DNA of 46,160 nucleotides from Oscillospiraceae bacterium (GTDB taxonomy: Bacteria > Bacillota > Clostridia > Oscillospirales > Oscillospiraceae): assembly GCA_009785525.1 (NCBI GenBank), contig WQWC01000012.1, positions 1-46,160 on the forward strand, written 5' to 3'. Of this stretch, positions 11,832 to 40,072 are shown piece after piece. Both the position numbers and the translations under genes were made by a program. How positions within the stretch are numbered: the stretch's first letter is position 1; every line of letters starts with the position of its first letter. Under the pieces are notes generated by a model that had not been told where the DNA came from, made no database searches, and worked only from the letters and a program-made list of their open reading frames with translations.

Positions 11832-12036
11832 TGCTAATATACCTATGAGGATAAGCTTCATTTTATACTGCTTGTTTTGGTTTGTCTGAAGAAATATTCT
11901 AGGGTCAGCGCAGTTATCCAACGGTGTGTTAAGCTTTGTCTGTGATGTCATTTGTCAAAAATCGTTGAATGATTTTGTGTAATTTGTATGTTGACAATGG
12001 GTGGGGCGGCACGTAAACTGTGAATACAATACATGT
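11832..12036 (+). repeat. duplicated upstream region, copy A
   Basis: About 200 bases matching 12878-13066 almost throughout: TGCTAATAT, GATAAGCTTCATTTTA, GTTTGTCTG, AGAAATATTCTA, ATCCAACG, GTGTAATTTGTA, a TTGAC box, ATGGGTGGG and CTGTGAA are shared in the same order. It ends with the promoter at 11991-12019 and fills the space between spoIVA and the secreted-protein gene. Confidence 0.8.
11991..12019 (+). promoter_or_regulatory. predicted promoter of the duplicated secreted-protein gene
   Basis: TTGACA at 11991-11996 and TAAACT at 12014-12019, 17-base spacer. The equivalent bases in copy B are TTGACG and TAGGCT, also with 17 bases between. Confidence 0.5.
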
Positions 12037-12127
12037 AAAAAGGGGTGGTGTTTATGAGATGAGGGAAGGGAAACAGAGGAGTGCTCAATCATACCGTACA
12101 ATCAACTTAAAAAAGGATGTGACACTA

Positions 12128-12748
12128 ATGAAAAAAATAATAACAATTTGCTTATTAGTAGCAATGATTTTTGCCATTGGCATAAGCGCAATAGCGGACG
12201 AGGCTGCAACACCAGAGGTGGATTTAGTGGCTCTTGAGCAGAGTAGGTTACCGTTTGTAGACGGAAGTGAATATACCGTAATGGAAGTTTATCCTCTAAC
12301 CGATGAGAATGTTTATATATTCGATGGCATAAGTGTAATAGCGGACGAAGCTACAATACCAGAGGTGGATTTGGTACTTCTAGAGCAGAGTAGAGTACGG
12401 TTTGCGCCTGAAATAGAATACACCGTAATGGAAGTTTATCCTCCGACCGACGGGAATGTTTATATATTCGACGCTGCAACCAGAACCGCGCTTACAGGAG
12501 TGCTGAGGGCACGCTACCTCCACACGGAAGAAGCAGATATTGCAAGCTCAAGATTTGTTACTGTCACCGTCAGCTGGTGGTCAGTGCCTGCGACCTTTGT
12601 CCCTCCGTCTACAATGCCGTTCACGGAAGACCACGGGACGTTTCTATATTTTGGTATTTTGTCGTTAGTGCCGGGAACTTTTATTTGGACCATTACTACC
12701 GCTTCTGCAAATTACTCCGGAACTATAACGAGGCTACAAACTTGGTAA
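12128..12748 (+). CDS. secreted protein with an internal tandem duplication
   Basis: 206 residues. A signal peptide (KKIITICLLVAMIFAIGISA, then IA/DEA as likely cleavage site) leads to two tandem copies of a 49-residue unit (residues 18-66 and 67-115), each ending TVMEVYPxTDxNVYIFD. The copies begin within the signal peptide's end: GISAIADEA versus GISVIADEA. The C-terminal 90 residues (TGVLRARYL, FVTVTVSWWSVPATFVPPS, GTFIWTITTASANYSGTI) look like a beta-sandwich surface domain. ATG 12128 is chosen for the signal peptide and AAAAGGA; the frame is open further upstream without meaning. No family recognised. It shares its upstream region with the LRR lipoprotein. Confidence 0.7.
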   Translation: MKKIITICLLVAMIFAIGISAIADEAATPEVDLVALEQSRLPFVDGSEYTVMEVYPLTDENVYIFDGISVIADEATIPEVDLVLLEQSRVRFAPEIEYTVMEVYPPTDGNVYIFDAATRTALTGVLRARYLHTEEADIASSRFVTVTVSWWSVPATFVPPSTMPFTEDHGTFLYFGILSLVPGTFIWTITTASANYSGTITRLQTW

Positions 12749-12833: not shown

Positions 12834-12869
12834 AAGCGCCTGTCGGCCGAAAAATACCGACAGGCGTTT
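12834..12869. terminator. terminator hairpin, copy 2 of the GCGCCTRTCGG family
   Basis: AAGCGCCTGTCGG...CCGACAGGCGTTT followed by TTGC; loop CCGAAAAATA. It ends the secreted-protein gene on the plus strand and has the same loop orientation as copy 1. Confidence 0.8.
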
Positions 12870-13093: not shown

Positions 13094-13852
13094 ATGAAGC
13101 GCATAAAAATCATTATGCTTGCGATTTCCGTAATCCTTTTTGCGGTAATCTTTACCGCTTGTGCAAACAGAGGCGGCGATGATACATACGACGACGATAT
13201 CACGGCGCTGATGGATGAAATCCTCGCGCACGCGGTGGAGGAGTACACTCCTATACCCGGATACATAAGAATCGGCGATGAGTATTTCAGCACGGAGTTG
13301 ACTGAGCTTGATTTGTTCGGAATGAATTTAACAGATGAAGAAATTGAGCTATTGCGGTATATGGTTAATTTGGAGAGTTTACGTTTACGCGGCCAGCAAA
13401 TCAGCGACTTGACGATGTTGTCCGGATTAACGAATTTAACGGACTTGAGTCTGAGCAACAATGAAATCAGTGACATTTCCCCATTGTCTGGATTAACGAA
13501 TTTGAAAAGTTTGGCTATAGGCGCGAGCGAAATCAGTGACTTGATGCCGTTAGCCGAATTGACGAATTTGGAAACGCTGCAATTGGGCGTGAACGAAATC
13601 AGCGATTTGACGCCACTGTCTGGATTAACAAATTTGTGGCTTTTGCGGTTGGACAACAACCAAATTAGTGATATAACGCCGTTGGCCGGATTGATAAATT
13701 TAAAGGGATTGGAATTAAATAACAATGAAATCAGCGACATAACACCACTGGCGAGCTTGACTAATTTGGAAACATTAGATTTACGCAGTAACCTAATTGC
13801 CGACTTTACGCCGTTAGACCACCTGCCTTTACTTACTTATTTTAGTAGCTAA
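13094..13852 (+). CDS. leucine-rich-repeat lipoprotein (internalin-like repeats)
   Basis: 252 residues. A lipoprotein signal (KRIKIIMLAISVILFAVIFT) ends at Cys23 (FTAC, a slightly weak lipobox), so the protein should be anchored outside the membrane. After an acidic linker come seven 22-residue repeats of the internalin type (pattern TNLxxLxLxxNxISDLTPLSGL), from about residue 90 to the end. The sequence before the repeats (STELTELDLFG and LLRYMVNLESL) closely matches the start of the LRR domain in the M56 protease encoded next. AGAGGAG lies before the ATG. Likely a ligand- or protein-binding surface protein; a co-receptor role with the protease is inference. Confidence 0.88.
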   Translation: MKRIKIIMLAISVILFAVIFTACANRGGDDTYDDDITALMDEILAHAVEEYTPIPGYIRIGDEYFSTELTELDLFGMNLTDEEIELLRYMVNLESLRLRGQQISDLTMLSGLTNLTDLSLSNNEISDISPLSGLTNLKSLAIGASEISDLMPLAELTNLETLQLGVNEISDLTPLSGLTNLWLLRLDNNQISDITPLAGLINLKGLELNNNEISDITPLASLTNLETLDLRSNLIADFTPLDHLPLLTYFSS

Positions 13853-13898: not shown

Positions 13899-13936
13899 AG
13901 CGCCTATCGGTATTTTCAACCGACAGGCGTTTTTTG
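13899..13936. terminator. terminator hairpin, copy 3 of the GCGCCTRTCGG family (inverted orientation)
   Basis: AGCGCCTATCGGT...ACCGACAGGCGTTTTTT. The loop (ATTTTCA) is the reverse complement of that in copies 1 and 2, so the element sits the other way round. It terminates the LRR lipoprotein gene. Confidence 0.85.
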
Positions 13937-13974: not shown

Positions 13975-14030
13975 TTGACAGCAAGTTCACTGTTGTAGTA
14001 CAATATTTACACAAGTAGCACGATGGCTAC
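13975..14030 (+). promoter_or_regulatory. promoter and probable BlaI operator
   Basis: TTGACA at 13975-13980 and TACAAT at 13999-14004, 18-base spacer. A perfect dyad, TTGTA-G-TACAA (13993-14003), overlaps the -10 box, and a second dyad GTAGC/GCTAC lies at 14015-14030. BlaI/MecI repressors bind TACA/TGTA-type dyads overlapping their own promoters, so autorepression of this blaI-protease operon is likely. Confidence 0.6.
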
Positions 14031-14056: not shown

Positions 14057-14431
14057 ATGATCCGTAAGATAGCCGATTCAGAGCTTGAGGTAATGCGTAT
14101 TCTTTGGCACGAGGGGCGGGCATTGTCCTTTGCCGAAATACGTACAGCAATAGAAAGCAAAACCGACTGGAAAAAATCAACCATTCAAACCCTTTTGGGG
14201 AGATTGCGGGACAAAGGCATTATTAGTGCTGAAAACCATTATGTTACGCTGTACAGTCCCAATATCAGCGAGGAAGAATTTATCAAAGAAGAAGAACAGC
14301 ATTTTATTGATAAACTGTTTGACGGCAATGCAATGAAGCTTGCGGCAGCCCTATGTAGGCACGGGCAGCTGGATGAACGCGATGTTGATGAACTCAAAGA
14401 ATTTTTTAAGATAGGGGGCAATGACACATGA
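14057..14431 (+). CDS. BlaI/MecI/CopY family transcriptional repressor
   Basis: 124 residues, cytosolic dimeric winged-helix repressor. The N-terminal domain has the family pattern IADSELEVMRILW, LSFAEIRTAI, WKKSTIQTLLGRLRDKGII and a wing (HYVTLYSPNISEEEF). The C-terminal helices (EEQHFIDKLFDG, ELKEFFKIG) form the dimer interface; in BlaI/MecI the protease-triggered cleavage occurs near the domain junction. AAGGAGG precedes the ATG. Its TGA overlaps the next ATG (ATGA at 14428), so repressor and protease are translationally coupled, the standard blaI-blaR1 arrangement. No beta-lactamase gene is nearby. Confidence 0.93.
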   Translation: MIRKIADSELEVMRILWHEGRALSFAEIRTAIESKTDWKKSTIQTLLGRLRDKGIISAENHYVTLYSPNISEEEFIKEEEQHFIDKLFDGNAMKLAAALCRHGQLDERDVDELKEFFKIGGNDT

Positions 14432-16527
14432 TAATACCGGCGTTTTTAAGCGGACTTGTCCGTGCAGTTATTATTATGACTCTGACTGGCGGATTGCTTG
14501 CATTATTGCTTCTGGTAATCAAACCGATTGTACGCAGTCGTCTGCCGAAAACGGCGCAATATTTTTTCTGGCTTGCGGCGCTTGCTTCGTTTTTGATTCC
14601 CGTATCACAGATAAATACCCCAACACCCGCGGCTAATATTCCAACGCCGATTCACAGCGTTGTGGAGCGTAATGTCATTTCCGTATTTGAGGATACAGCC
14701 CGCTTTTATGCGGAAATTGAGCGGATAAACGCATACAATGCCGCTGTTTCCGAACGTGAAGTTGCTAATAACCGCGAACCCAATACCATAATGACAGTGA
14801 CACCCGCGCCGCCAACATTGTCAGTGAGAGCAATCACCGTTTTCATGTTCGTCTATCCGTGGGCAGCCCTGCTCGTTCTGCTCTACAGCTTGATAGGCTA
14901 TGCTCGCTTTGTCAGAAAACTGCGCTGGAGCCATGCCGAGTCTCCTGATTTTGCAGTGGATATACTCCGCGAACTGACAGCCGGCCACCGCACGCCACGG
15001 CTAATCGTGAGTGATTACGCGGCAACACCTATGTTGATCGGGGTTTTCAGGCCAGCAATCATCCTGCCTGACCGCGAATATACCAACGAGCAAATGCGAA
15101 GCATCCTGCTGCATGAGCTGACGCATATGCGGCGGTTTGACGTAACTGTGAAGTGGCTGTCCCTCTTTGCCTGCGTCGTACATTGGTTTAATCCGCTTGT
15201 GTGGATTGCAAGGCGGGAAATAGACCGTGCATGTGAACTCTCCTGCGATGCGGCGGTTATCCGCAACATGGACGCATACGGAAAGCAGATTTATGGTGAA
15301 ACACTGATTTCCGTGGCAAGTGACAGAAAAATACCACTGCCTGTGCTTTCAACGACGATGTGCGAGGAAAAGCGGGCGCTGAAAGAAAGGTTAGGTGCTA
15401 TTATGAAAAACAAAAACTACACAAAACTGACGATTTCAATATCCGCCGTCATCTTTCTGGCAGTGGTATTAATCGCTTGTGCTACAGGTGCGAGCACCAG
15501 TGAGCAGAACATCGCCACTTACCCCGAGCAGTCCGCGGAGACAGACGCCATTGATACCGACCAACACGAAGCCGACACAACATCGGACGCATTGCCGACA
15601 AACGATGATGAACTGGTAATCCCTGAATATATCACTATCTATGGTCTCGGCGGCGGTATCAGCCGGCAAATCAGCACAGAGTTGACGGAGCTTGATCTGG
15701 GTGCTTTTACGGCAACATGTGAAGATATTGTGCCATTGCGGTACATGGTGAATTTAACGAGTTTGCAACTAGGCGGCAACCGGATCAGCGATTTGACGCC
15801 ATTGGCAGAGTTGACAAATTTGACGCACTTGAGCTTGTCAGGCAATGAGATCAGTGACTTGACACCTCTTACCGAATTGACAAATTTAACGGAACTGAAT
15901 TTGGTAAATAATCAAATCAGCGACTTGATGCCTCTTGCCGGACTGACAAATTTGACGGAACTGGACTTGAGGTGGAACGAAATCAGTGACATTGCACCGC
16001 TTGCCGGGTTGACAAGTTTGACGCACTTGGTCTTGTGGCGCAATAATATCAGCGACATTGCGCCCCTTGCCGGATTGGCAAATTTGACGGAACTGAACTT
16101 GGAGGAGAACGAAATCAGCGACATCGCGCCCATTGCCGGGTTGACGAATCTGACTGTATTGAACTTGGCGGCAAATGAAATCATTGACGTTGCGCCCATT
16201 GCCGGGTTGACTAATCTGGAGATTTTGGTCTTGGGCGTTAACCCGATCAGCGACATAACACCGCTGGCCGGGTTAACTAGTTTGACAATATTGAACTTGA
16301 TGGACAATGATATCAGTGATATATCTCCATTAGCCGGATTAACACGATTAACGCATCTGATGTTGCTGAACAACAAGATCACTGACATTACTCCCCTTGC
16401 CGAACTACCGGAATTGACGGAATTGTTTTTGGCAGGAAACCCCATTGAAGACTGGTCTCCTGTAGATCATATAGAGTTTGATTGGATCAGAGAAGATCCC
16501 ATGGGAAGATCATCTCACGGCAGGTAG
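14428..16527 (+). CDS. M56 (BlaR1-type) membrane metalloprotease fused to an LRR ectodomain
   Basis: 699 residues. The N-terminal half is an M56 antirepressor protease: membrane segments near residues 10-30, 45-62 and 134-156, then the zinc site HELTH at about 229-233 and the downstream glutamate in ACELSCDAAV near 270. A further hydrophobic segment at about 332-350 (ISISAVIFLAVVLIAC) places what follows outside the cell. In BlaR1 that exterior part is a penicillin-binding sensor; here it is a linker followed by eleven 22-residue LRRs (about residues 445-690, TNLTELNLxxNxISDIAPLAGL). Ligand binding by the LRRs would activate the protease and inactivate the co-encoded BlaI; this is inference from BlaR1. 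The fragment from 15403 also resembles a complete lipoprotein start, hinting at how the fusion arose. Confidence 0.92.
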   Translation: MIIPAFLSGLVRAVIIMTLTGGLLALLLLVIKPIVRSRLPKTAQYFFWLAALASFLIPVSQINTPTPAANIPTPIHSVVERNVISVFEDTARFYAEIERINAYNAAVSEREVANNREPNTIMTVTPAPPTLSVRAITVFMFVYPWAALLVLLYSLIGYARFVRKLRWSHAESPDFAVDILRELTAGHRTPRLIVSDYAATPMLIGVFRPAIILPDREYTNEQMRSILLHELTHMRRFDVTVKWLSLFACVVHWFNPLVWIARREIDRACELSCDAAVIRNMDAYGKQIYGETLISVASDRKIPLPVLSTTMCEEKRALKERLGAIMKNKNYTKLTISISAVIFLAVVLIACATGASTSEQNIATYPEQSAETDAIDTDQHEADTTSDALPTNDDELVIPEYITIYGLGGGISRQISTELTELDLGAFTATCEDIVPLRYMVNLTSLQLGGNRISDLTPLAELTNLTHLSLSGNEISDLTPLTELTNLTELNLVNNQISDLMPLAGLTNLTELDLRWNEISDIAPLAGLTSLTHLVLWRNNISDIAPLAGLANLTELNLEENEISDIAPIAGLTNLTVLNLAANEIIDVAPIAGLTNLEILVLGVNPISDITPLAGLTSLTILNLMDNDISDISPLAGLTRLTHLMLLNNKITDITPLAELPELTELFLAGNPIEDWSPVDHIEFDWIREDPMGRSSHGR

Positions 16528-16568: not shown

Positions 16569-16602
16569 AGCGCCTGTCGGTATTTTCCAACCGACAGGCG
16601 CT
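16569..16602. terminator. terminator hairpin, copy 4 of the GCGCCTRTCGG family (inverted orientation)
   Basis: AGCGCCTGTCGG...CCGACAGGCGCT, loop TATTTTCCAA, same orientation as copy 3. It lies between the convergent LRR-protease gene and the small membrane protein gene and could serve both. Confidence 0.8.
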
Positions 16603-17404: not shown

Positions 17405-17446
17405 TTTAAATCAGTAATTTAACAGAAAGAAATGGTCTGTAATTAT

Positions 17447-18499
17447 ATGAAAAAGCTTCTGTCTTTAATAGGTTTATCACTGGCTCTATTGCTTCTTTCC
17501 GGCTGTTTTATATTGCCTGTGGAGGCGCCGGTCTTGCCGCCGCCTACTATCACTATGCCGGAGCAGTTGGAATTTGTCACAGTGCCTGTGACACGCGGTG
17601 ACATAATACTCGAATCATTCGCCACAACGCGTTATGTATCCACCAGGATAGAGCGGCATTATTTTACCGAGGACGGCATTCCTATACTCGGGATATATGT
17701 CACCGTAGGGGATGAGGTTTTGGAAGGCGACATTATTGCCGCGCTGTATATACCGGAGATTCAGGATGAGCTTGAAGAACTCAGCCGCAGACGTGCAAGG
17801 ATATTGCTTGATATCGGAAGAGAAAATGACAGACGGGCGACAACTTACCGTATCGCGGCAGATTCCGGTGTACCTTTTAACAGTGCGCCTTTTGACGTGG
17901 CATTGAGGGCCTTGCGTGAGGATCTTACGCTTCTGGACAGACTGATCGCGCATGTGGAAGACCTCAACGAAGGCAGGTATTTGCGCGCCGTTATGGATGG
18001 CGTTGTCACCAGCGCAACGGCGTTTGAAGAAGACATGCGCTCAATTTTCGGCCGTGATATCGCGAGGATTTCAGACTTTTCAACCACGGCGTTTGTAGTG
18101 CAAGGCACGTGGGCTATGGGAATGTATCCCGGTGACCGGCTTGAAATGGCACTGGGGGATGAAATGTTCCTTATGGAAGTTGTTGACCCGTACGAAGCGG
18201 GGATTTACGAGGAAGATCAGCCCGACCCGGGATTTACGACAGCTTATCTCGCCTTTGTGGGCACGCACCCCGGCCCCGGCTTTGAAGAGACCGGAAGTAT
18301 ACATATACCCCTTGAAGAAGCTATTGACGTGCTGATAATACCTGTTTCCACCTTGCGGCAAGTTCAAGACCGCAGTTTTGTCTATGTGCTTGGCGAGCAT
18401 AACCTGCGTATGATTCGGGAAGTTGTCCCGGGTATTGAAGGTGAGGGTTACATTGAAATAGTAAGCGGCCTCACAGAAGGTGAGCTGATAATATTATGA
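17447..18499 (+). CDS. ABC exporter adaptor lipoprotein 1 (HlyD/MacA-like)
   Basis: About 350 residues. Signal peptide with a perfect lipobox (LSGC, Cys20), so membrane-anchored and outside the cell. The adaptor fold is visible: lipoyl-like half (PILGIYVTVGDEVLEGDIIAAL), a coiled-coil hairpin (EIQDELEELSRRRARILLDI), the second lipoyl half (GRYLRAVMDGVVTSA), and a terminal barrel (VYVLGEHNLRMIREVVPGIE, then GLTEGELIIL). In diderms such proteins bridge to a channel; in monoderms they work with MacB-like permeases. ATG 17447 fits the signal peptide; ATG 17432 is in frame and also possible. The stop overlaps the next ATG (ATGA), the first of several overlaps in this operon. Confidence 0.85.
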   Translation: MKKLLSLIGLSLALLLLSGCFILPVEAPVLPPPTITMPEQLEFVTVPVTRGDIILESFATTRYVSTRIERHYFTEDGIPILGIYVTVGDEVLEGDIIAALYIPEIQDELEELSRRRARILLDIGRENDRRATTYRIAADSGVPFNSAPFDVALRALREDLTLLDRLIAHVEDLNEGRYLRAVMDGVVTSATAFEEDMRSIFGRDIARISDFSTTAFVVQGTWAMGMYPGDRLEMALGDEMFLMEVVDPYEAGIYEEDQPDPGFTTAYLAFVGTHPGPGFEETGSIHIPLEEAIDVLIIPVSTLRQVQDRSFVYVLGEHNLRMIREVVPGIEGEGYIEIVSGLTEGELIIL

Positions 18500-19665
18500 G
18501 AAAAAAAAGATGTGTGATTTACGCGTTTCTCTTCACCGCGGTTTTGCTGCTGATTTCGGCCTGTGCCTCAAACCCGTCGAATACCGCGCCTGTCCTGCTT
18601 GAACCCGTGGCCGGGCGGATAGATACCGCGTTTGTCACACGGGGCGTTGTTGAAGAAGTGGAAATACTGTCCGGCATAGCGCGATTACCGACGGCGGCCG
18701 CATATACTGAGACCGGAAGCGGGCGCATCGGGGGCATATATGCCTGGCCTGGCGACATTGTATACGAAGGCCAGGTAATCGCCAGACTTGATACGTCCCG
18801 CATAGACGCTATGATTGATAATCTTGAGCGGTCTATGGAACTTTCCCGCACCATGCACAGATTACAAGCGGAAGAATTATCCGTGCGGATAAATATGCTG
18901 GAACTTGCGTATTCAGCTGCCGTTGCCGATGCGGAGCGCGACGTGGGGTATTATGAGGAGTACGATACGGAATACGGCGAAGCCGCCGTCGGAATCGCTG
19001 TCGATACCGCCGGCTTGCGCGGGCAGATAGAATTGTTAAGGATTGATCTGGACCATATCACTCGCCGGCATCGGCTTGATGCGGCAGATTCGGCAATCGC
19101 ACTTGCAGAGCTGCGTGAATATTTAGCGCAGGCGGAGATTAGAGCGCCTTTTGCCGGGGAAGTTGTATTTACGCTCCTGCCAGGAACATGGGTAAATCCC
19201 CTTGACCCTGTTGCATATATTTCAAGTCCAGATGGGGTGTTTGTTGAGTATGTCGGGATGGTACTGTCACCGCAAACGCTGCAGTGGAACGCGGAGCGGA
19301 TACACGGAACTATCGGCAGGAGAAGCTATCCTCTGGAGCGGATCATACTGAGTATAGAGGAACAGAATTATTATAGAAACCGCGGCCTTACCCTACCTAT
19401 CCGGTTTGATATACAGGCGGAACCGCACAATCTGCCGTCTTCAGGGGAAACGGTATTTATACGTCTGTACAGCATTTGGACAGAGGATGTGTTGCGTATA
19501 CCGTCAAACGCCCTGTTCCAATCCGGGGCGGATTCGGCCTTTGTATACCGCATTATAGACGGCAGACAAGAGCATGTATATGTGACCATCGGTGCTCTTA
19601 CGGATATTTATACAGAGATATTATATGGGCTAAATGAGGGGGATGAAGTATTTGTCAGACCATAG
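18496..19665 (+). CDS. ABC exporter adaptor lipoprotein 2 (HlyD/MacA-like)
   Basis: 389 residues. Signal peptide with lipobox ISAC (Cys23). A lipoyl half (RIGGIYAWPGDIVYEGQVIA) is followed by a longer helical hairpin than in adaptor 1 (about residues 100-215, with RLDTSRIDAMIDNLERSMEL and HRLDAADSAIALAELREYL), then LAQAEIRAPFAGEVVFTLL and a C-terminal barrel (NALFQSGADSAFVYRIIDG; GLNEGDEVFVRP). It starts in an ATGA overlap with adaptor 1 and its end overlaps the start of adaptor 3. The three adaptors differ enough to be non-redundant parts rather than a recent triplication. Confidence 0.87.
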   Translation: MRKKRCVIYAFLFTAVLLLISACASNPSNTAPVLLEPVAGRIDTAFVTRGVVEEVEILSGIARLPTAAAYTETGSGRIGGIYAWPGDIVYEGQVIARLDTSRIDAMIDNLERSMELSRTMHRLQAEELSVRINMLELAYSAAVADAERDVGYYEEYDTEYGEAAVGIAVDTAGLRGQIELLRIDLDHITRRHRLDAADSAIALAELREYLAQAEIRAPFAGEVVFTLLPGTWVNPLDPVAYISSPDGVFVEYVGMVLSPQTLQWNAERIHGTIGRRSYPLERIILSIEEQNYYRNRGLTLPIRFDIQAEPHNLPSSGETVFIRLYSIWTEDVLRIPSNALFQSGADSAFVYRIIDGRQEHVYVTIGALTDIYTEILYGLNEGDEVFVRP

Positions 19666-20929
19666 CCGTATTGGTAAATCGAGAAACTCGACACATAAAG
19701 CGTGCGCTGGATACAGACTTGCCCTTATTGCGGCGATTTTGATTATCGGCTCAATTTTTCTTGCCGCGTGCGGAACTTCCGGGGAACAGTTGCACGATGT
19801 CGCCGCCGCTGTGGAGGCCGGGATAATTATGCAGATGCCGCTGGGAGATGCCACGGACGCTGAGGAAGCGGAAGTACGAATAGTTCAGGCATCGGTGCAG
19901 GACATGGCAATAAACACAGCGATCCCGGCAACGCTTGTATTCCCTATATATCAGATGTTGTTTTTTGAGAGTAATGAAGGATACGTAACCATGCTTGTGG
20001 AAGAAGGGCAGCTTGTAAGAGAAGGCGACGCGCTGGCGCAGCTGACATTCAGCGCCGATGTCAAGACCCGCCATGAAATAGCCTACGACACCGCTAGAGT
20101 ACGTTTAAGGCGGCTTGAAAATGAACTTGCAGAGGAACGGGGACGGCGGCTGGCAGAAATTGAAGAAGCCCGAAGAGCGGTCGCTTACGCGCCTGATGGA
20201 ACTGCGGCACAGCAGGCGGCGCTTAATGCAAGGCAGCTTGAGATAAGGCTGGAGCAATTTACGCGTAGCAGCGCCAGTATGCGTGACGCACTAAGGGCAG
20301 AAATTGCCGCAATGGCACATACAATTGAGAGCGAGACAATTATCGCCCCGTTTGACGGAATGATTACCGCGCCTGCTAATATAACCGGAAGCATCAGCGG
20401 GAACCCCCGCATAATGACGCTTGTGGATTACAATGTTTTCTTCTATGAATTTACCTTAACGCCCAATCCGCTGGTACCAAGTCTTTACAGCGTGCTGGGC
20501 CATGGTGACATTATAACATTACGCGCCACCAGCAGGCCCACCGAAGATCCGGACGCCCCCCCTCTACTGGAGTTTCCGGTACGTGTCGTCTCAGAATTTT
20601 GGGCGGCAGGGCAGCGGGCTAATTTCGTCTATTGGTTTAAGCCTGTGGATATGGAAAGATTGATGGCAGATCTTCGCGAGCATGATGAGAGCAACCCGAT
20701 GAATGTTTTGCGAGGCAAAACTATTATGGCGGAGCTGGAGATAATTACCGCCCCTGACGCGGTAACATTGCCTCTGGCGGCAATTCGTCTGGAAGGCAAC
20801 CGGCAATTCGTACTTATTAATACCGAGAACGGACCGGGCAAGCGTTTTGTCCACGCAACGACCCGTATGGATAGATACATACACATTGTCACCGGTATTG
20901 AGGCCGGGACGGAGGTGATTCTGCCTTGA
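19634..20929 (+). CDS. ABC exporter adaptor lipoprotein 3 (HlyD/MacA-like)
   Basis: 431 residues, with an unusually long polar stretch before the hydrophobic core of its signal (YRLALIAAILIIGSIFLAAC; lipobox LAAC, Cys46). The lipoyl half (EGYVTMLVEEGQLVREGDAL), coiled coil (RVRLRRLENELAEERGRRLA) and second half (SETIIAPFDGMITAPANI) are in order; the barrel ends TGIEAGTEVILP. The start is uncertain: ATG 19634 or 19643, both inside adaptor 2, with the GAGGGGG sequence too close to the second. Its TGA overlaps the permease TTG start (TTGA at 20926-20929), so the permease is tightly coupled to it. Confidence 0.85.
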   Translation: MRGMKYLSDHSRIGKSRNSTHKACAGYRLALIAAILIIGSIFLAACGTSGEQLHDVAAAVEAGIIMQMPLGDATDAEEAEVRIVQASVQDMAINTAIPATLVFPIYQMLFFESNEGYVTMLVEEGQLVREGDALAQLTFSADVKTRHEIAYDTARVRLRRLENELAEERGRRLAEIEEARRAVAYAPDGTAAQQAALNARQLEIRLEQFTRSSASMRDALRAEIAAMAHTIESETIIAPFDGMITAPANITGSISGNPRIMTLVDYNVFFYEFTLTPNPLVPSLYSVLGHGDIITLRATSRPTEDPDAPPLLEFPVRVVSEFWAAGQRANFVYWFKPVDMERLMADLREHDESNPMNVLRGKTIMAELEIITAPDAVTLPLAAIRLEGNRQFVLINTENGPGKRFVHATTRMDRYIHIVTGIEAGTEVILP

Positions 20930-23850
20930 TTGGATTCCTATGGCGAAAAATCTGGAAAAACAAATGGCTGATGCTCTGTCTGATTTTTGGCAACATCATC
21001 CTTATCGGCATGGTGGCGGTTGTGCCGTTATTCACCACAGCGACCACGCAGCGCTTGTTTCAGGGGGAGTTCCGGCACGTGCAAGAGACACGGAACATAT
21101 TCCCCGCCATTATGCAGCTGCGCTATAACTTCACCGCCGTTGGGGAAGACCAGCGCTTCGGCGGGTATCTATTGGCAAGGGAGATACTATGGCCCGAAGC
21201 AATAGAGGATCTAGGTATCCCGGATGTCTTTGGGATGCACACATACGCTATGAACAATTTGTTGATACGACCCGCTGTGGCGCGTGCGTATCCAAACCGG
21301 GATCGTACAATCAGCCTGGTCGCGCCCGAGGGGTTTAGAGATAATATAAACCTTGTGTACGGCAGGATGCCGGCCGACGAGCTTGTGGACGGATTTATAA
21401 TCGAAGTTTTGGCAATGAATTCTACACTGCACCGCCATAATTTGGTGTATGGCGAACTGCTGGAAGTGCACGGCGCAGTGAACGTGAGAGCAGAGCACCA
21501 ACATGTCAGAGATCGAGAAGTACGATATGGAGTACGGGATGCACGCGCGGGCAATCCCGACTATATTCACGTCATGGTTGTAGGCATATTTGAGCTGGCT
21601 GAAGACGCTGAGACATATTGGTCAGCAGTACCGATCACATTTGCCAACTCAATGCTGTTTTCAGACAACCTGATGTCCAGGGAATTTATTGAAGACTTTG
21701 ATTCTGAGTACTATATGATGCATGTGACATGGACACAAGTGCTGGACGCGGAAGCAATGAGAGCAAACCGTGCGGAGCATTATGTCCAAACGATAAATGA
21801 CGCTAGGGATCGCTTCAATACCGGCAATAACATTTGGCATTATAGCGTGAATTTCTATGACATAATCAGCCAGTTTGCCGGCGGACCAGATCAACTGGAA
21901 GTCACTGTTTTGGTACTCCAAATCCCGATTTACGTGATGCTGGCGCTCTTTATGTACATGGTGACAAGGCAGATATTGCTTTTGGATAGCAATGATATAT
22001 CGGTTTTGAAGAGCAGGGGCGCAAGTCGGCGTCAAATCATGGGGGTTTATGCGCTTCAAGGTCTGTTTGTCGGGGCTGTCAGTTTTCCGTTTGGAATAAT
22101 GCTGGGCGTGGGGCTATGCCATCTCATCGGTTCCAGCAGCGGATTTTTGGAAATGGTGAATAGGGCCGCGCTTGATGTGGAAATCACCGGTCAGGCTATT
22201 TTGTTCGGCGCGATTGGCATGGGAATATCTTACCTGTATCTGCTTCTTCCGGTAATCGGACTGTCCAAGGTTGCAATTGTTGACCATAAGCGGGCCAAGG
22301 TCAGAAAGACCCAAAAGCCGGTATGGCAGAAATATTTTATTGATATTCTCACCCTTGCCTTGGCGATATATTTGCTGTACAGCTTCAATCTCCAGCGTGA
22401 GCAGATGATGATTACGATGCCGGAGGCCAGGGTTTTCGATCCGCTGCTTTTCGCAGGCTCCTCGTTATTCATAATAGGCACTGCCTTGATATTACTGCGT
22501 TTGTATCCATATCTTTTGAAGTTAGTCTTGATTATAGGGCGCAGACGATTTGGCCCAGCCTTATATACATCTGTGGTAAAAGTCAGCCGCAGTGCGGGTG
22601 GGGAACAGTTTATCATGCTGTTTCTGGTGTTCACAGTGGCCGTTGGAATATTCAGCGCACAGGCAGCAAGGACGCTTAACCTAAACAACGCCCATCGTAT
22701 ACAGTATTTGGGCGGTGCGGACTTGATGCTCAGAGAATTCTGGCCGGATAACCAATTTACTGCGGTGGAGTTAGAGTTGGGGGCGGGTCCGCAGCCGCCG
22801 ATTGCGTTTGTTGAACCGGACTTTAACCGCTTTACTCACTTTGAGGAAGTGGATGCCATCACCCCTGTCTTGGTGAGTCCGGACGCGTCAGTTCGGATGG
22901 GCGTCGGGTTCGGGGTAGATAGAATTACGCTTATGGGTATAGAAACAAATACCTTTGGGGAGACTGTGTGGTTTCGGGATGATCTGCTCTCGATTCATAT
23001 AAACCATTTTCTTAATATATTGTCAAGGCATCCTGATGGTGTGCTCCTCTCGTCAAACTTCAGTAATTTGGGGTACAGTATCGGGGACGAGGTGTTAATT
23101 TCAACGGCACGGACACATGGGAACCCGCACACAGGGCGGTTTACGATAGTTGGGTTTATAGACCACTGGCCCTCTTTCAATCCTGTGAGCGTGACGCGGC
23201 TTTCCACAGGAGAAATTCGGCAAGAGGCGCAGTTCCTGGCAGTTGCCAACTTAGGGCAACTGCGGATGAATTGGGGAGCCATACCGTATCAGATTTGGAT
23301 GCGTACAAACGGCGCGTCACATCAGTTCATACATGATTTCATAAGAGAGGACGGGCTAACAGTCTCCGCATTTAACGACACGGTCGGCACTTTGGTTGAG
23401 ATATTGTCTGACCCAATCGTGCAAAGCACTAACGGAATGCTGACAATAGTCTTTATTATGACGATGCTGCTGTGCTTTACAGGGTTCCTGATTTACTGGA
23501 TTTTATCAATAAAGGGACGTCTTTTGCAATTCGGCGTCTTCCGTGCCATGGGCATGGGGATGCGCGGGATAATGAGCATATTGATAAGCGAGCAAGGGTT
23601 GATTACGATTTCTGCGCTGATTATCGGCGGGGTGATCGGCGGGGTGGCTTCGCGTCTGTTTGTACCGCTGGTTCAGCTGTCTTACACAGCCGCTGACCAG
23701 GTGATACCTTTGCTGGTAGCGATGGAGCCCAGGGATTACATGATGATTTACGGTATTTGCGGATTCATGCTGGTGCTGTGTGTTACGATTTTAGTCAGAT
23801 ACACCCTGCGTGTTAATGTATCGCAAGTTCTGAAGCTCGGGGAGGATTAG
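20926..23850 (+). CDS. ABC transporter permease, FtsX/MacB-like, two FtsX domains
   Basis: 974 residues, the only permease of the operon. The first membrane segment is near residues 14-35 (LMLCLIFGNIILIGMVAVVP), followed by an exterior domain of about 280 residues, three FtsX segments (about 335-450, with LLLDSNDISVLKSRGASRRQ), two more segments, another core segment near 560 (FIMLFLVFTVAVGIFSAQAA), a second exterior domain and a second FtsX trio (about 845-965). The loop KGRLLQFGVFRAMGMGMRGI contacts the ATPase in this family. TTG 20926 has a near-perfect GGAGGTGA site. Such permeases move periplasmic or extracytoplasmic substrates (peptides, lipoproteins, antibiotics) mechanically; the substrate here is unknown. 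Confidence 0.9.
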   Translation: MIGFLWRKIWKNKWLMLCLIFGNIILIGMVAVVPLFTTATTQRLFQGEFRHVQETRNIFPAIMQLRYNFTAVGEDQRFGGYLLAREILWPEAIEDLGIPDVFGMHTYAMNNLLIRPAVARAYPNRDRTISLVAPEGFRDNINLVYGRMPADELVDGFIIEVLAMNSTLHRHNLVYGELLEVHGAVNVRAEHQHVRDREVRYGVRDARAGNPDYIHVMVVGIFELAEDAETYWSAVPITFANSMLFSDNLMSREFIEDFDSEYYMMHVTWTQVLDAEAMRANRAEHYVQTINDARDRFNTGNNIWHYSVNFYDIISQFAGGPDQLEVTVLVLQIPIYVMLALFMYMVTRQILLLDSNDISVLKSRGASRRQIMGVYALQGLFVGAVSFPFGIMLGVGLCHLIGSSSGFLEMVNRAALDVEITGQAILFGAIGMGISYLYLLLPVIGLSKVAIVDHKRAKVRKTQKPVWQKYFIDILTLALAIYLLYSFNLQREQMMITMPEARVFDPLLFAGSSLFIIGTALILLRLYPYLLKLVLIIGRRRFGPALYTSVVKVSRSAGGEQFIMLFLVFTVAVGIFSAQAARTLNLNNAHRIQYLGGADLMLREFWPDNQFTAVELELGAGPQPPIAFVEPDFNRFTHFEEVDAITPVLVSPDASVRMGVGFGVDRITLMGIETNTFGETVWFRDDLLSIHINHFLNILSRHPDGVLLSSNFSNLGYSIGDEVLISTARTHGNPHTGRFTIVGFIDHWPSFNPVSVTRLSTGEIRQEAQFLAVANLGQLRMNWGAIPYQIWMRTNGASHQFIHDFIREDGLTVSAFNDTVGTLVEILSDPIVQSTNGMLTIVFIMTMLLCFTGFLIYWILSIKGRLLQFGVFRAMGMGMRGIMSILISEQGLITISALIIGGVIGGVASRLFVPLVQLSYTAADQVIPLLVAMEPRDYMMIYGICGFMLVLCVTILVRYTLRVNVSQVLKLGED

Positions 23851-23851
23851 G

Positions 23852-24535
23852 TTGGAAAAGATGCTGATTCAAGCAATAGACATTAAGCGCGGTTTTCCGA
23901 TGGGTGGGGGGACTTTTTGGGCGCTTAACGGGATATCTTTAAATGTGGCTGAAAGCAAGCTCACTATTCTCAAAGGCCGCTCAGGCAGCGGCAAGACCAC
24001 TATGATGAACTTACTCGGCGCGCTTGATTATCCGACGGAGGGCGAAGTTATCTTCAACGGCTTGCCAATTTCAAGCGCAAGTGAAAGATTGCGCGGAAAT
24101 TTGCGCCGCCGCGAAATCGGATTTGTGTTTCAGTCTGTGGCGCTGATAGGCATGATGACGGCTTTTGAAAATGTCGAGTTCGCCCTGCGTATAAGCGGAT
24201 ATCCTGAGAGGGGGCGCAAAAAGCGGGTGGAAGCCTGCATGGATTTGGTCGGGCTTTCATCGCGCATGTATCACATGCCTGCCGAGCTTTCGGGAGGTGA
24301 GCAGCAGCGCGTGGCGATAGCGAGGGCAATAGTGCATGAGCCGAAAGTGATTTTCGCGGATGAGCCAACGGCAGAGCTTGATACGAATACCGGACTGCAA
24401 GTCGTGAAGATTTTCAAGGACCTCATCGATAGTGAAGGAACTACCGTGGTTATGACTACGCACGACCCGGATCTGATGGATGTAGCGGACAGGGTATACG
24501 AGTTGGCGGACGGGAGGATTATAAATGAATACTGA
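23852..24535 (+). CDS. ABC transporter ATP-binding protein 1 (LolD/MacB type)
   Basis: 227 residues. Walker A GRSGSGKTT, Q-loop region GFVFQSVALIGMMTAFENVE, signature LSGGEQQR, Walker B VIFADEPTAELD and switch His (TTHDP) are all intact, so it should be an active ATPase. It is most like the MacB/LolD class that pairs with FtsX permeases. TTG 23852 is preferred because GGGGAGGA ends five bases before it; the ATG at 23861 would be too far. It starts one base after the permease stop and overlaps ATPase 2 by 11 bases. Confidence 0.93.
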   Translation: MEKMLIQAIDIKRGFPMGGGTFWALNGISLNVAESKLTILKGRSGSGKTTMMNLLGALDYPTEGEVIFNGLPISSASERLRGNLRRREIGFVFQSVALIGMMTAFENVEFALRISGYPERGRKKRVEACMDLVGLSSRMYHMPAELSGGEQQRVAIARAIVHEPKVIFADEPTAELDTNTGLQVVKIFKDLIDSEGTTVVMTTHDPDLMDVADRVYELADGRIINEY

Positions 24536-25436
24536 GAATGAAGTTATAGTGGCCGAAAACCTAGTCAAGATATACAAGACCCGTGACCTTGAGGTGTTGG
24601 CGCTTCAAGGTCTTGATTTAATAATCAAGCGCGGCGAGGTAATGGCGATAATAGGAAACAGCGGAAGCGGTAAGTCAACCCTTCTTAATATGATCGGCGG
24701 GTTGGACAGACCTTCTGCCGGGAGTCTTATTGTTGATGGCAAGGATTTGTTCAAACTCAGCGAGAAAGACTTGGTGGACTATAAAACTGTCACTGTCGGC
24801 TTTGTGTGGCAGAATAATGCCCGTAACCTTATCCCGTATCTCAGCGCAATGGAAAATGTAATGATGCCTATGCAATTTAACACGGTAAACCCGATTAAGG
24901 ACAAAAGGATACGGGCGATGGAATTGCTTGAGCTTGTGGAAATGAACGGCCGCGCAAATCATCGGCTGAGCCAACTTTCCGGGGGAGAACAGCAAAGGGT
25001 TGCCATTGCAACTGCGATGGCCAACCACCCAGCCGTGCTTCTTGCTGACGAACCCACTGGGAACGTTGATACGCGCACCACAGAGGTCATTTTGGACATG
25101 TTCCGGACAGTAAACAAAGCGCTTGGCACAACTATTGTAATCGTCACCCATGACCGGGAAATTTCAAAGAGGGTGGAGAGGGTCGTTGCTATACGCGACG
25201 GAAAGACTTCCAGCGAGTTTGTACTGAGCGCCGGATATGCCGACAAGCTATCAGGCATCGAAGGGTTCAGCACCGGAGAGCAAGTTGAGCTTGCCGTACT
25301 GGACCGCGCTGGCCGCGTGCAGATCCCGCGGGAGCTGCTGGACAAAATCGGCGAACACAGCAATCGTCTGCACATACATATGGATGACGAAGGGCGCATT
25401 ATCCTAAATGCGCTGGAGGAAGAAGCGGGAAACTGA
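24525..25436 (+). CDS. ABC transporter ATP-binding protein 2 with C-terminal AbrB-like domain
   Basis: 303 residues. The ATPase core (about residues 1-225) is complete: Walker A GNSGSGKST, GFVWQNNARNLIPYLSAMEN, LSGGEQQR, LLADEPTGNVD, VTHD. About 75 extra residues follow. Within them, AVLDRAGRVQIPRELLDKIG followed by LHIHMDDEGRIILN has the strand-GR-hydrophobic-P-helix pattern of the AbrB/SpoVT swapped hairpin. ATPase 1 lacks this. The pair may form a heterodimer on the single permease, with the extra domain for dimerisation or regulation; both are inference. GGGAGGA precedes ATG 24525, which lies inside ATPase 1. It is the last gene of the operon. Confidence 0.92.
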   Translation: MNTENEVIVAENLVKIYKTRDLEVLALQGLDLIIKRGEVMAIIGNSGSGKSTLLNMIGGLDRPSAGSLIVDGKDLFKLSEKDLVDYKTVTVGFVWQNNARNLIPYLSAMENVMMPMQFNTVNPIKDKRIRAMELLELVEMNGRANHRLSQLSGGEQQRVAIATAMANHPAVLLADEPTGNVDTRTTEVILDMFRTVNKALGTTIVIVTHDREISKRVERVVAIRDGKTSSEFVLSAGYADKLSGIEGFSTGEQVELAVLDRAGRVQIPRELLDKIGEHSNRLHIHMDDEGRIILNALEEEAGN

Positions 25437-35219: not shown

Positions 35220-36858
35220 TTTGGCGCGGTGGAGAGAGAAAGTAACATGCTTTTTTGAGAGTAAGCGAAATTTCTACATCGTCCTTTTTGCCGCGATGCT
35301 TCTAAAAAACTTCCCCTTCGGTTTTCGGTATTTTCGCTTTGCCGATGATTACATTCAATTTCGCGGCTATTTTTTCGGCTATGAAAGCCTTTGGCGAGAT
35401 GTGTTCGTGCACCATGAACTGTATGGATACCGCCCTTTAGCAGGCCTCACAGATGTGTTCATTATCTCCAGATTTTGGGACAACCTGGCAATTGTTCTGC
35501 TGGCTATAGTGATTCTGCACTTTGTGACAATCTATCTGTTAGGCAAGCTTTTTGAGAGAAGCAATATCATCTGGGGCAGGGCGGCGGCTGTATTTTTTGC
35601 ATTGTATCCCACCTTGACGGAATCGGCCTATTGGATCAGCGCTTCATCAAGAATCGTAACTTCCGCTTTTTTTGCCGTTGCCGCAGCTTTTGCAATTGTG
35701 AAGTTCATCTATAAAGAAGGCAGGCACTGGATTTGGTTTACAGCGGCTATGCTCTCCGGGCTCCTGGCGCAAGGATTCTATGAGCAGGGCATAGTATTTG
35801 CTTTTGTGCTTACACTCGGCGTCTTGATCATATACAGGAAAGCGGTAAAGCACAAGATACTCTTTGCCTGGCCGTTTGCAAACCTTGCCGTCATAGCGAC
35901 GCATTATTATATCTTCCGCAATACGGGTCTGCTTGGCCGCAGGGCGAACGTCGTACAGCAAAGTCTCTTCCAGCAAATTCCCGAAATAGCCGGAAGAATC
36001 GGCAGGACGTTTGTAATGGAGCAGATGCCGACCATCGGAAACACTCTAAGATTGGGAATCAGACAGCTTTTTACGGAACATCTGGTTTTGACAATCTTCG
36101 TGGCGATTTTCGCATTGCTTTTATCCTTATTTATTGTCTTTGAAAAATCCGGAAATGCCGAGTATCACGGAAGCATTGGTGCGGACAAAAGAACGGCCAG
36201 ATCATTACTTGCGGCGTTCATTTTGACGGTCTGCACTCTTATGATTTATTTTTTCCTGGCAAACCCGTGGATATGGGTACGCAATTTCTTCTTTGCCGTA
36301 ATTGGCCTCGCAATATTTGTTGAAATCGGACTACGCTGTATAAGGCAAAACAAAAACAAGCTGATAGCTACGGGTTTGAAGATTGGCAAAACTGCCGTAG
36401 TGTTTTTTGCTTGCTTCGTGTTTTTCTGCGGATTTATTCTTGAGGTAAATAGCCTGCGCCTGGTTGAAAAGTATGACAATATCATAGTTTCAAATCTGGT
36501 TAAAGAGGTGGGGCGTTTGGAATTAGCGGAAGAGGTTGAAATCGTTTGGTTCTTTGGCCCGCGCTGGACTTATGCCCGCAAAATCAACCCCAGGATAACG
36601 AGCCAATTACGGATAAACTGGGCATTAAACGGTCATTTCACCGTAGTTTCAGATGGCAACCGCAATCAGCGGTTTATCCCGGTTATGGCCGGCGGCACAT
36701 CAAATGTGGATTTTGAGCATGATATTTTGCTCGGCCTGGACAGCAGCTTAAACGTCAGGAAACTGCGCTTTGACGGACGTTACCTGATTTTCACCGACAC
36801 CGGCACGATATTCGGCAGCATAGATATTGAAGAAAACGGCAGATTTACCCCGAAATAG
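35212..36858 (+). CDS. polytopic membrane glycosyltransferase-like protein (Gtr type)
   Basis: 548 residues with about ten membrane segments. The first exterior loop contains RFADDYIQFRGY, the acidic DD site typical of GT-C enzymes, and a C-terminal soluble part (IVWFFGPRWTYARKI) follows the last segment near residue 420. GT-C proteins use polyprenyl-phosphate sugars as donors outside the membrane. In a Gtr cassette this gene is the variable one that sets acceptor specificity. ATG 35212, with CGGAGGA at 35197-35203, lies inside the end of GtrB (8-base overlap). Exact family uncertain. Confidence 0.75.
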   Translation: MHSLARWREKVTCFFESKRNFYIVLFAAMLLKNFPFGFRYFRFADDYIQFRGYFFGYESLWRDVFVHHELYGYRPLAGLTDVFIISRFWDNLAIVLLAIVILHFVTIYLLGKLFERSNIIWGRAAAVFFALYPTLTESAYWISASSRIVTSAFFAVAAAFAIVKFIYKEGRHWIWFTAAMLSGLLAQGFYEQGIVFAFVLTLGVLIIYRKAVKHKILFAWPFANLAVIATHYYIFRNTGLLGRRANVVQQSLFQQIPEIAGRIGRTFVMEQMPTIGNTLRLGIRQLFTEHLVLTIFVAIFALLLSLFIVFEKSGNAEYHGSIGADKRTARSLLAAFILTVCTLMIYFFLANPWIWVRNFFFAVIGLAIFVEIGLRCIRQNKNKLIATGLKIGKTAVVFFACFVFFCGFILEVNSLRLVEKYDNIIVSNLVKEVGRLELAEEVEIVWFFGPRWTYARKINPRITSQLRINWALNGHFTVVSDGNRNQRFIPVMAGGTSNVDFEHDILLGLDSSLNVRKLRFDGRYLIFTDTGTIFGSIDIEENGRFTPK

Positions 36859-40004: not shown

Positions 40005-40072
40005 TATGAAGTATCACCCCTGTAATTTTTCGCTGAGTTTAGCGGTATTTTCGGACTGTCGGCGTTTTGTTA

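Follow-up and report, generated by a model that had tools for sequence, protein, structure and literature searches.

A BlaI-linked M56 protease with an internalin-type leucine-rich repeat domain in an Oscillospiraceae genome

The stretch of DNA analyzed here (the window) is an entire contig of 46,160 nucleotides (nt), WQWC01000012.1 (contig C12), of an Oscillospiraceae bacterium whose genome (GCA_009785525.1) comprises 70 contigs and 2.16 Mb. On its forward strand the window contains a two-gene unit: blaI (14057–14431), coding for a BlaI/MecI-family repressor of 124 amino acids (aa), and a gene for an M56 protease fused to leucine-rich repeats (LRRs), hereafter M56-LRR (14428–16527), which starts with ATG and encodes 699 aa without internal stop codons. 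The 3′ end of blaI overlaps the start of the M56-LRR open reading frame (ORF) by 4 nt, the translational-coupling arrangement proposed in the initial annotation. Whereas BlaR1 is familiar as a receptor for beta-lactams, the BlaR1-type protease and repressor found here go with an outer domain of a protein- or surface-binding kind, for which the same genome offers a likely donor. With a chance that we put at about even, this is a two-gene BlaI/M56 proteolytic switch in which the outer domain was exchanged and the LRRs serve as the input.

Architecture of the fusion protein and its likeness to BlaR1

Pfam identifies Peptidase_M56 at aa 14–325 of the M56-LRR protein (E 2.4e-47, 162 bits against a cut-off of 31) and LRR_4 (E 7e-52, 172.7 bits against a cut-off of 27). 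Together with the HELTH motif, E270 and the open 699-codon frame, these matches bear out the earlier recognition of an M56 signature and LRRs in one gene after blaI. The repressor matches PF03965 (Penicillinase_R) over its full length (E 3.4e-26), and its residues 5–116 align with 8–119 of the penicillinase repressor 1sd4 (E 7.6e-11).

The N-terminal part of M56-LRR (14464–14895) comprises transmembrane segment (TM) 1 (aa 13–31), TM2 (a helix at aa 41–56), an outer loop and TM3 (aa 138–156); all three segments are AlphaFold helices, with hydropathy above 1.6 only for TM1 and TM3. A further hydrophobic segment after the protease, also expected from the initial annotation, is located by hydropathy (2.75) at aa 334–352 (TM4, 15427–15483; AlphaFold helix 333–355). 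TM4 resembles a signal peptide, stands between protease and LRRs and ends with the lipobox LIAC (aa 348–351, 15469–15480), the last residue of which is Cys351. An N-terminal cap and eleven internalin-type LRRs, counted by regular expression and matched by LRR_4, occupy 15682–16479 and form a solenoid of 22-residue repeats. They stand in place of the C-terminal penicillin-binding sensor, to which the M56-LRR protein has no Pfam match, and the protein does not qualify as a beta-lactam receptor. By the topology of BlaR1 the LRR domain is expected to lie outside the cell; the AlphaFold models do not tell the sides of the membrane.

The zinc site (15112–15237) consists of HELTH (aa 229–233, 15112–15126) and E270 (15235–15237), with a spacing of 41 as between H201 and E242 of BlaR1. 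HELTH and E270 are invariant in 36-row and 44-row alignments of relatives, and in the 44 rows so are H229, E230, H233, E270 and D274 of the HEXXH and EXXXD motifs, the invariance of E270 and D274 being partly built in because both fall in a pattern used to fetch relatives. The family profile pairs a predicted autocleavage loop, LSTT/M (aa 307–311, 15346–15360; the slash marks the cut), with LSHS/F of Staphylococcus aureus BlaR1, and R321 with R294, the conserved arginine after the loop. The NCBIfam profile blaR1_generic matches aa 23–351 at profile positions 10–326 of 585, scoring 112.8 bits where the cut-off is 400; the end of the match at position 326 indicates that the protease half of BlaR1 is present and the sensor half is not. 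The transmembrane and protease part is modelled with the BlaR1 fold. The standard account of BlaR1 is given in PMC7593790. A BlaR1-like protease acting on BlaI is the best-supported part of the mechanism, with the action on BlaI suggested by analogy to BlaR1.

The genome contains two M56 and two BlaI matches. The second blaI-M56 pair (L002:839–2391, contig C25) encodes an M56 protein of 378 aa with little space for an outer domain, and is adjoined by short secreted-looking peptides with cysteine residues.

Origin and distribution of the LRR domain

Relatives were gathered by likeness to the M56 part in the window, and thus represent its neighbourhood rather than the whole family; rows ending before TM4 were dropped, leaving 118 proteins, 4 of which were omitted from the trees. 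In the tree of 114 M56 rows the window protein is sister, with support 95, to the M56 protein of locus L036 (the same gene as L098 and L115), which is 56–57% identical and has a C-terminus without LRRs. The LRR part is related to a different gene: the segment 15599–16552 is homologous at the DNA level to a free LRR lipoprotein gene on contig C57 of the same genome (blastn pieces of 75% and 71%). In the window the homology sets in within the linker that follows TM4 and runs on for 25 bases beyond the stop codon; in C57 it starts right after the cysteine of the signal peptide. The longest exact match is 54 nt, at 16444. Among 25 LRR ORFs compared, which include the 8 further LRR proteins that this genome encodes, the C57 lipoprotein comes closest to M56-LRR, with 67% identity in the cap (89 aa) and 87% in the tail (54 aa). 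The extent of the homology, from linker to past the stop, indicates that the end of an LRR gene was placed behind TM4 of an M56 gene, and the free lipoprotein gene is the likely donor. The LRR part thus seems to be a domain swap, by which a well-known antibiotic-sensing switch was re-equipped with a different outer domain.

Another free LRR lipoprotein gene, assigned by Pfam, lies just upstream of the unit (13094–13852, + strand); it was rejected as the closest donor, since its cap is 58% identical compared with 67% for C57. The terminator-like hairpin GCGCCTGTCGG ... CCGACAGGCGC downstream of M56-LRR (16570–16601, + strand) was not used as a mark of joint transfer because its core recurs within the window. 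This core, CGGTATTTTC, is found in four plus-strand copies (13908–13929, 16570–16601, 35326–35335 and 40043–40052), has hairpin arms behind both LRR genes, and occurs in a looser inverted copy at 12837–12859 on the minus strand. Rfam searched at gathering thresholds returned no matches.

The similarity of LRR genes within this genome and the 54-nt exact match to C57 would also fit an assembly chimera of two originally separate genes, one for M56 and one for LRRs. Around the boundary between the two parts (15400–15800), however, no exact match to the upstream LRR gene or to 13 other loci of this genome exceeds 26 nt, the 54-nt match being at the 3′ end, and the same architecture occurs in another genome. 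The frame is open throughout, also near 15400, where the initial annotation had raised the possibility of a join or frameshift that would assign the LRRs to a separate gene. A chimera is therefore considered very improbable.

The second M56-LRR fusion is found in a different genus (genome G299, locus L066; L095:8532–10466). It encodes 644 aa in the same domain order, its M56 part is 43% identical to that of the window, and it overlaps its own blaI by four bases. Thus blaI accompanies both fusions found; in the wider set a script saw blaI at 76 of 123 M56 genes, an undercount owing to contig ends and to misses such as the existing blaI of L066. A gene of the Beta-lactamase2 family (PF13354, E 1e-27) starts 44 bases past the stop of the second fusion; the genome carrying the window has three PF13354 matches, all on other contigs, two of them exceeding the cut-off. 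In the M56 tree the second fusion lies away from the window protein, and the LRR label has to change twice if the supported branches are kept. Judged from the tree, two independent LRR grafts would be the simplest account; alternatively, a single old gain of LRRs may have been followed by losses.

Such fusions appear to be rare. Queried with the full-length protein, 2 of 400 family genomes, own included, gave a match spanning both parts among the matches listed, and a boundary profile gave no further fusion among the matches listed for 394 order and 398 phylum genomes (own included in each); these scans scored at most two and at most eight candidates per genome, respectively, and may have missed fusions. 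Across 283 loci, many of them overlapping, M56 and LRRs share one ORF in only these two genes. None of 11 candidate stretches from boundary-profile matches contains both in one ORF according to the regular expression, and three of them (L273, L274 and L278) have no LRR ORF by script. Among the best 80 of 588 matches that an alignment query gave in named genomes, the script found an M56 ORF in 78 loci (not in L138 and L191), none with an LRR tract of more than one LRR-like match, several of these ORFs stopping at the locus end. A scan of named genomes with a single protein as query (P0001) confirmed no relative, and none of the 70 plasmid records with a match has a place covering 80% of the query. 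No paper joining M56 or BlaR1 with leucine-rich repeats, joining BlaR1 with a lipobox, or dealing with an internal lipobox was found in open-licence PMC. Among the best 80 of 588, the closest named relative is the Oscillospiraceae metagenome-assembled genome Co191P1bin31, a type of bin name that we take to denote a termite-gut origin.

Pfam analysis of 116 non-redundant M56 C-termini, some of which end at a locus edge, identified beta-helix (4), WG repeat (3), LRR (2), M23 (2), DUF4825 (2) and other domains. These M56 proteins vary widely in their outer part, where LRRs are a rare choice. At L049 the C-terminus of the M56 protein reads like an M23 peptidase, an enzyme and not a receptor domain. 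Locus L281 (G576:C129) carries an M56 gene and a free LRR gene on opposite strands of one short contig.

Elsewhere in the window, a 242-aa ORF (12020–12748) with an internal near-duplicate stretch (ISxIADEAxxPEVDLVxLEQSR) has no Pfam or NCBIfam matches. A gene run at 17432–25436, comprising three proteins without a Pfam match, an FtsX permease (20926–23850) and two ABC ATPases, looks like an export system.

Promoter, putative operators and proposed signalling

The blaI promoter (13975–14004), recognized by eye and by comparison with relatives, consists of a −35 box TTGACA (13975–13980), an 18-bp spacer and a −10 box TACAAT (13999–14004). Two imperfect dyads of the form TACAnnTGTA lie here: O1, CACTGTTGTA (13988–13997), with two mismatches, lies in the spacer at offset 13 from the start of the −35 box, as in the sister L036, while O2, TACACAAGTA (14008–14017), with one mismatch, lies just past the −10 box at offset 33, the sister having TACAAGTGTA at 34. 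For comparison, 68 blaI promoters carrying a TTGAC box, among them that of the window, were examined for the best fit to TACAnnTGTA at two positions downstream of the −35 box. The mismatches sum to at most 2 in 32 of the 68, with the first dyad at offset 15 in 30 of these 32 and the second at 34–46; in 29 the sum is at least 4, many of them having the longer spacing TACA-NNN-TGTA instead. The window sum is 3, and an equal fit was reached in 19 of 5000 shuffles of the window stretch. O1 and O2, placed at the sister's offsets, are candidate BlaI operators, if imperfect ones. Two pairs of inverted repeats are described for BlaI promoters of Clostridium thermocellum in PMC8457756, and TACANNTGTA is the reported core of this repressor superfamily, necessary and not sufficient according to PMC7253601.

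The initial annotation had instead proposed TTGTA-G-TACAA (TTGTAGTACAA) as the operator, which is not supported. It occurs once in the window without mismatch (13993–14003), where TGTAG is part of O1 and TACAA part of the −10 box; genome-wide there are 5 copies compared with 4 for the reversed-pattern control, and the sister and other relatives place TACAnnTGTA dyads at the positions of CACTGTTGTA and TACACAAGTA. With up to one mismatch the window contains 4 matches versus 1.45 expected, a count reached by 7 of the shuffles. TACAnnTGTA was likewise discarded as a marker of a regulon, with 23 genome sites versus 34 in the reversed control.

In the proposed mechanism, BlaI would bind the two dyads at its own promoter and repress the blaI-M56-LRR operon. 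The M56 protein would be embedded in the membrane, its zinc site facing the cytoplasm and its internalin-type solenoid, grafted behind TM4 from a resident LRR lipoprotein gene, lying outside the cell on a flexible linker of about 60 residues. An external ligand, such as a protein, a peptide or a wall glycan, met by the LRRs would alter TM4 and the preceding helix; the protease would then become active, cut itself in the LSTT/M loop and cut BlaI, thereby derepressing the operon. Architecture, catalytic residues, gene overlap, operator layout and donor homology are all read from sequence, while the membrane sides and the action on BlaI follow BlaR1 by analogy; a sensing role of the LRRs is plausible.

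Several observations weigh against this mechanism. Two specificity positions of BlaR1 autocleavage differ, P2 His282 corresponding to T309 and P1′ Phe284 to M311, and Foldseek itself superposes the protein only loosely on BlaR1 (TM-score 0.55, rmsd 14.8). The genome has 23 perfect TACAnnTGTA sites, none of them on the window contig, and PMC7253601 cautions that the core by itself is a poor predictor of binding. The pattern combining the −35 box and first dyad has one genome match, the own promoter (control 0), with no other target gene; being strict and drawn from this promoter and its relatives, it may overlook weaker targets. The LRR part evolves fast: by codon position, the changes relative to C57 number 15/18/28 for the cap and 4/3/5 for the tail. 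Finally, the presence of Cys351 points to a possible separation of the LRR domain from the protease by cleavage, in which case direct signalling would be interrupted.

The weak codon-position bias of the LRR part would also fit a recent accidental fusion without selected function, in which recombination put the 3′ end of an LRR lipoprotein gene behind an M56 gene that had lost its own outer domain. The different C-terminus of the sister M56 protein, the match to C57 including the 3′ flank and the finding of only two M56-LRR genes across the searches made are in line with this explanation. It is nevertheless regarded as quite unlikely, since the 699-codon frame is open, the M56 half shows third-position bias (112/68/204 changes relative to the sister), blaI and the dyads are kept, and a second fusion of the same kind exists in another genus and elsewhere in the tree.

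The TM4 lipobox and comparison with known systems

The lipobox of M56-LRR ends a hydrophobic segment and is internal, so that the protein does not carry an N-terminal lipoprotein signal peptide of the usual kind. A strict lipobox, [LVI][ASTVI][GAS]C, ends TM4 in 29 of the 118 non-redundant M56 proteins (loci L035–L194), compared with a mean of 4.0 and a maximum of 9 in 1000 rounds of shuffling the same letters, the 118 being related proteins rather than independent draws. It is absent from all 303 other TM segments of the same proteins, 66 of which hold a cysteine. A looser pattern is found in 44 of 118 versus 14.8 expected, and in 5 of the 303 other segments. On the tree the strict lipobox label changes 16 times, at least 14 changes being forced by supported branches; it is possibly a wider feature of clostridial M56 proteins. 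A lipobox common to both LRR fusions was considered and dismissed, since the second one lacks the cysteine.

In S. aureus, signal peptidase SpsB cuts BlaR1 between the last TM helix and the sensor, and a role in turnover is proposed, according to PMC9834060. Taken with the enrichment of the lipobox, this cleavage suggests a signal-peptide role for TM4, which in the window would be that of a lipoprotein, and the LRR domain may be lipid-anchored and cut from the protease. It is tentatively proposed that in many clostridial BlaI/M56 systems, including that of the window, TM4 is a true lipoprotein signal peptide, the outer domain being cut off and lipid-anchored, and one frame encoding both regulator and surface output. 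The outer domain would then be freely exchangeable with secreted lipoproteins, as happened here.

The lipobox, together with the lack of another target by the one strict operator pattern, means that the LRR domain could be output and not input. It would then be cargo: Lgt would modify Cys351, LspA would cut before it and the LRRs would stay as a surface lipoprotein, BlaI and M56 mainly setting the amount of their own outer domain, with the trigger read elsewhere, for example by the TM2–TM3 outer loop. Besides the enrichment of the strict lipobox and the SpsB cleavage, this explanation is consistent with the start of the C57 homology directly after the signal-peptide cysteine, with the lipobox ending the signal peptide in the other LRR proteins of the genome (strict in 4 of 8, looser in 2), and with the two M56 C-termini out of 116 that match an M23 peptidase, an enzyme. 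It is held to be unlikely, although with an appreciable chance, because the cysteine is absent from the second fusion and most relatives and the SpsB cleavage is proposed to serve turnover. Nor is the unit always free-standing: in 6 of 20 clade loci a same-strand ORF of at least 70 aa starts within 260 bases behind M56 (within 60 in one of them), two loci ending too early. These counts indicate that a free-standing two-gene unit is common and not the rule.

If the LRRs do sense, the switch with the exchanged outer domain would be a receptor that responds to a protein or surface ligand in a single proteolytic step. If TM4 does act as a lipoprotein signal peptide, the swapping of outer domains among M56 proteins would have an explanation, and the cleavage that signal peptidase is reported to make in S. 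aureus BlaR1 would become a wider, testable rule.

Overall, the system resembles BlaR1/MecR1 with BlaI/MecI of S. aureus and Bacillus licheniformis in its membrane gluzincin site, predicted autocleavage-type loop, coupled repressor gene and putative operator dyads. Unlike them, M56-LRR lacks the penicillin-binding sensor and has an internalin-type LRR domain and a lipobox ending TM4. Other clostridial M56 proteins, with beta-helix, WG repeat, M23, DUF4825, BNR or other domains, share the protease half, the TM4 junction and often an adjoining blaI, and differ in the C-terminal domain, which is of LRR type in 2 of 116. The free LRR lipoprotein of the same genome (contig C57, L262:2182–3030) is alike in the cap, tail and DNA past the stop, but has its own signal peptide and no protease. 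Internalin-type LRR proteins and the Chlorobium Roco LRR (5il7; 53% identity over 263 columns) share the 22-residue LRR solenoid, whereas the matched LRR chains are annotated as internalin or Roco and none as an M56 protease.
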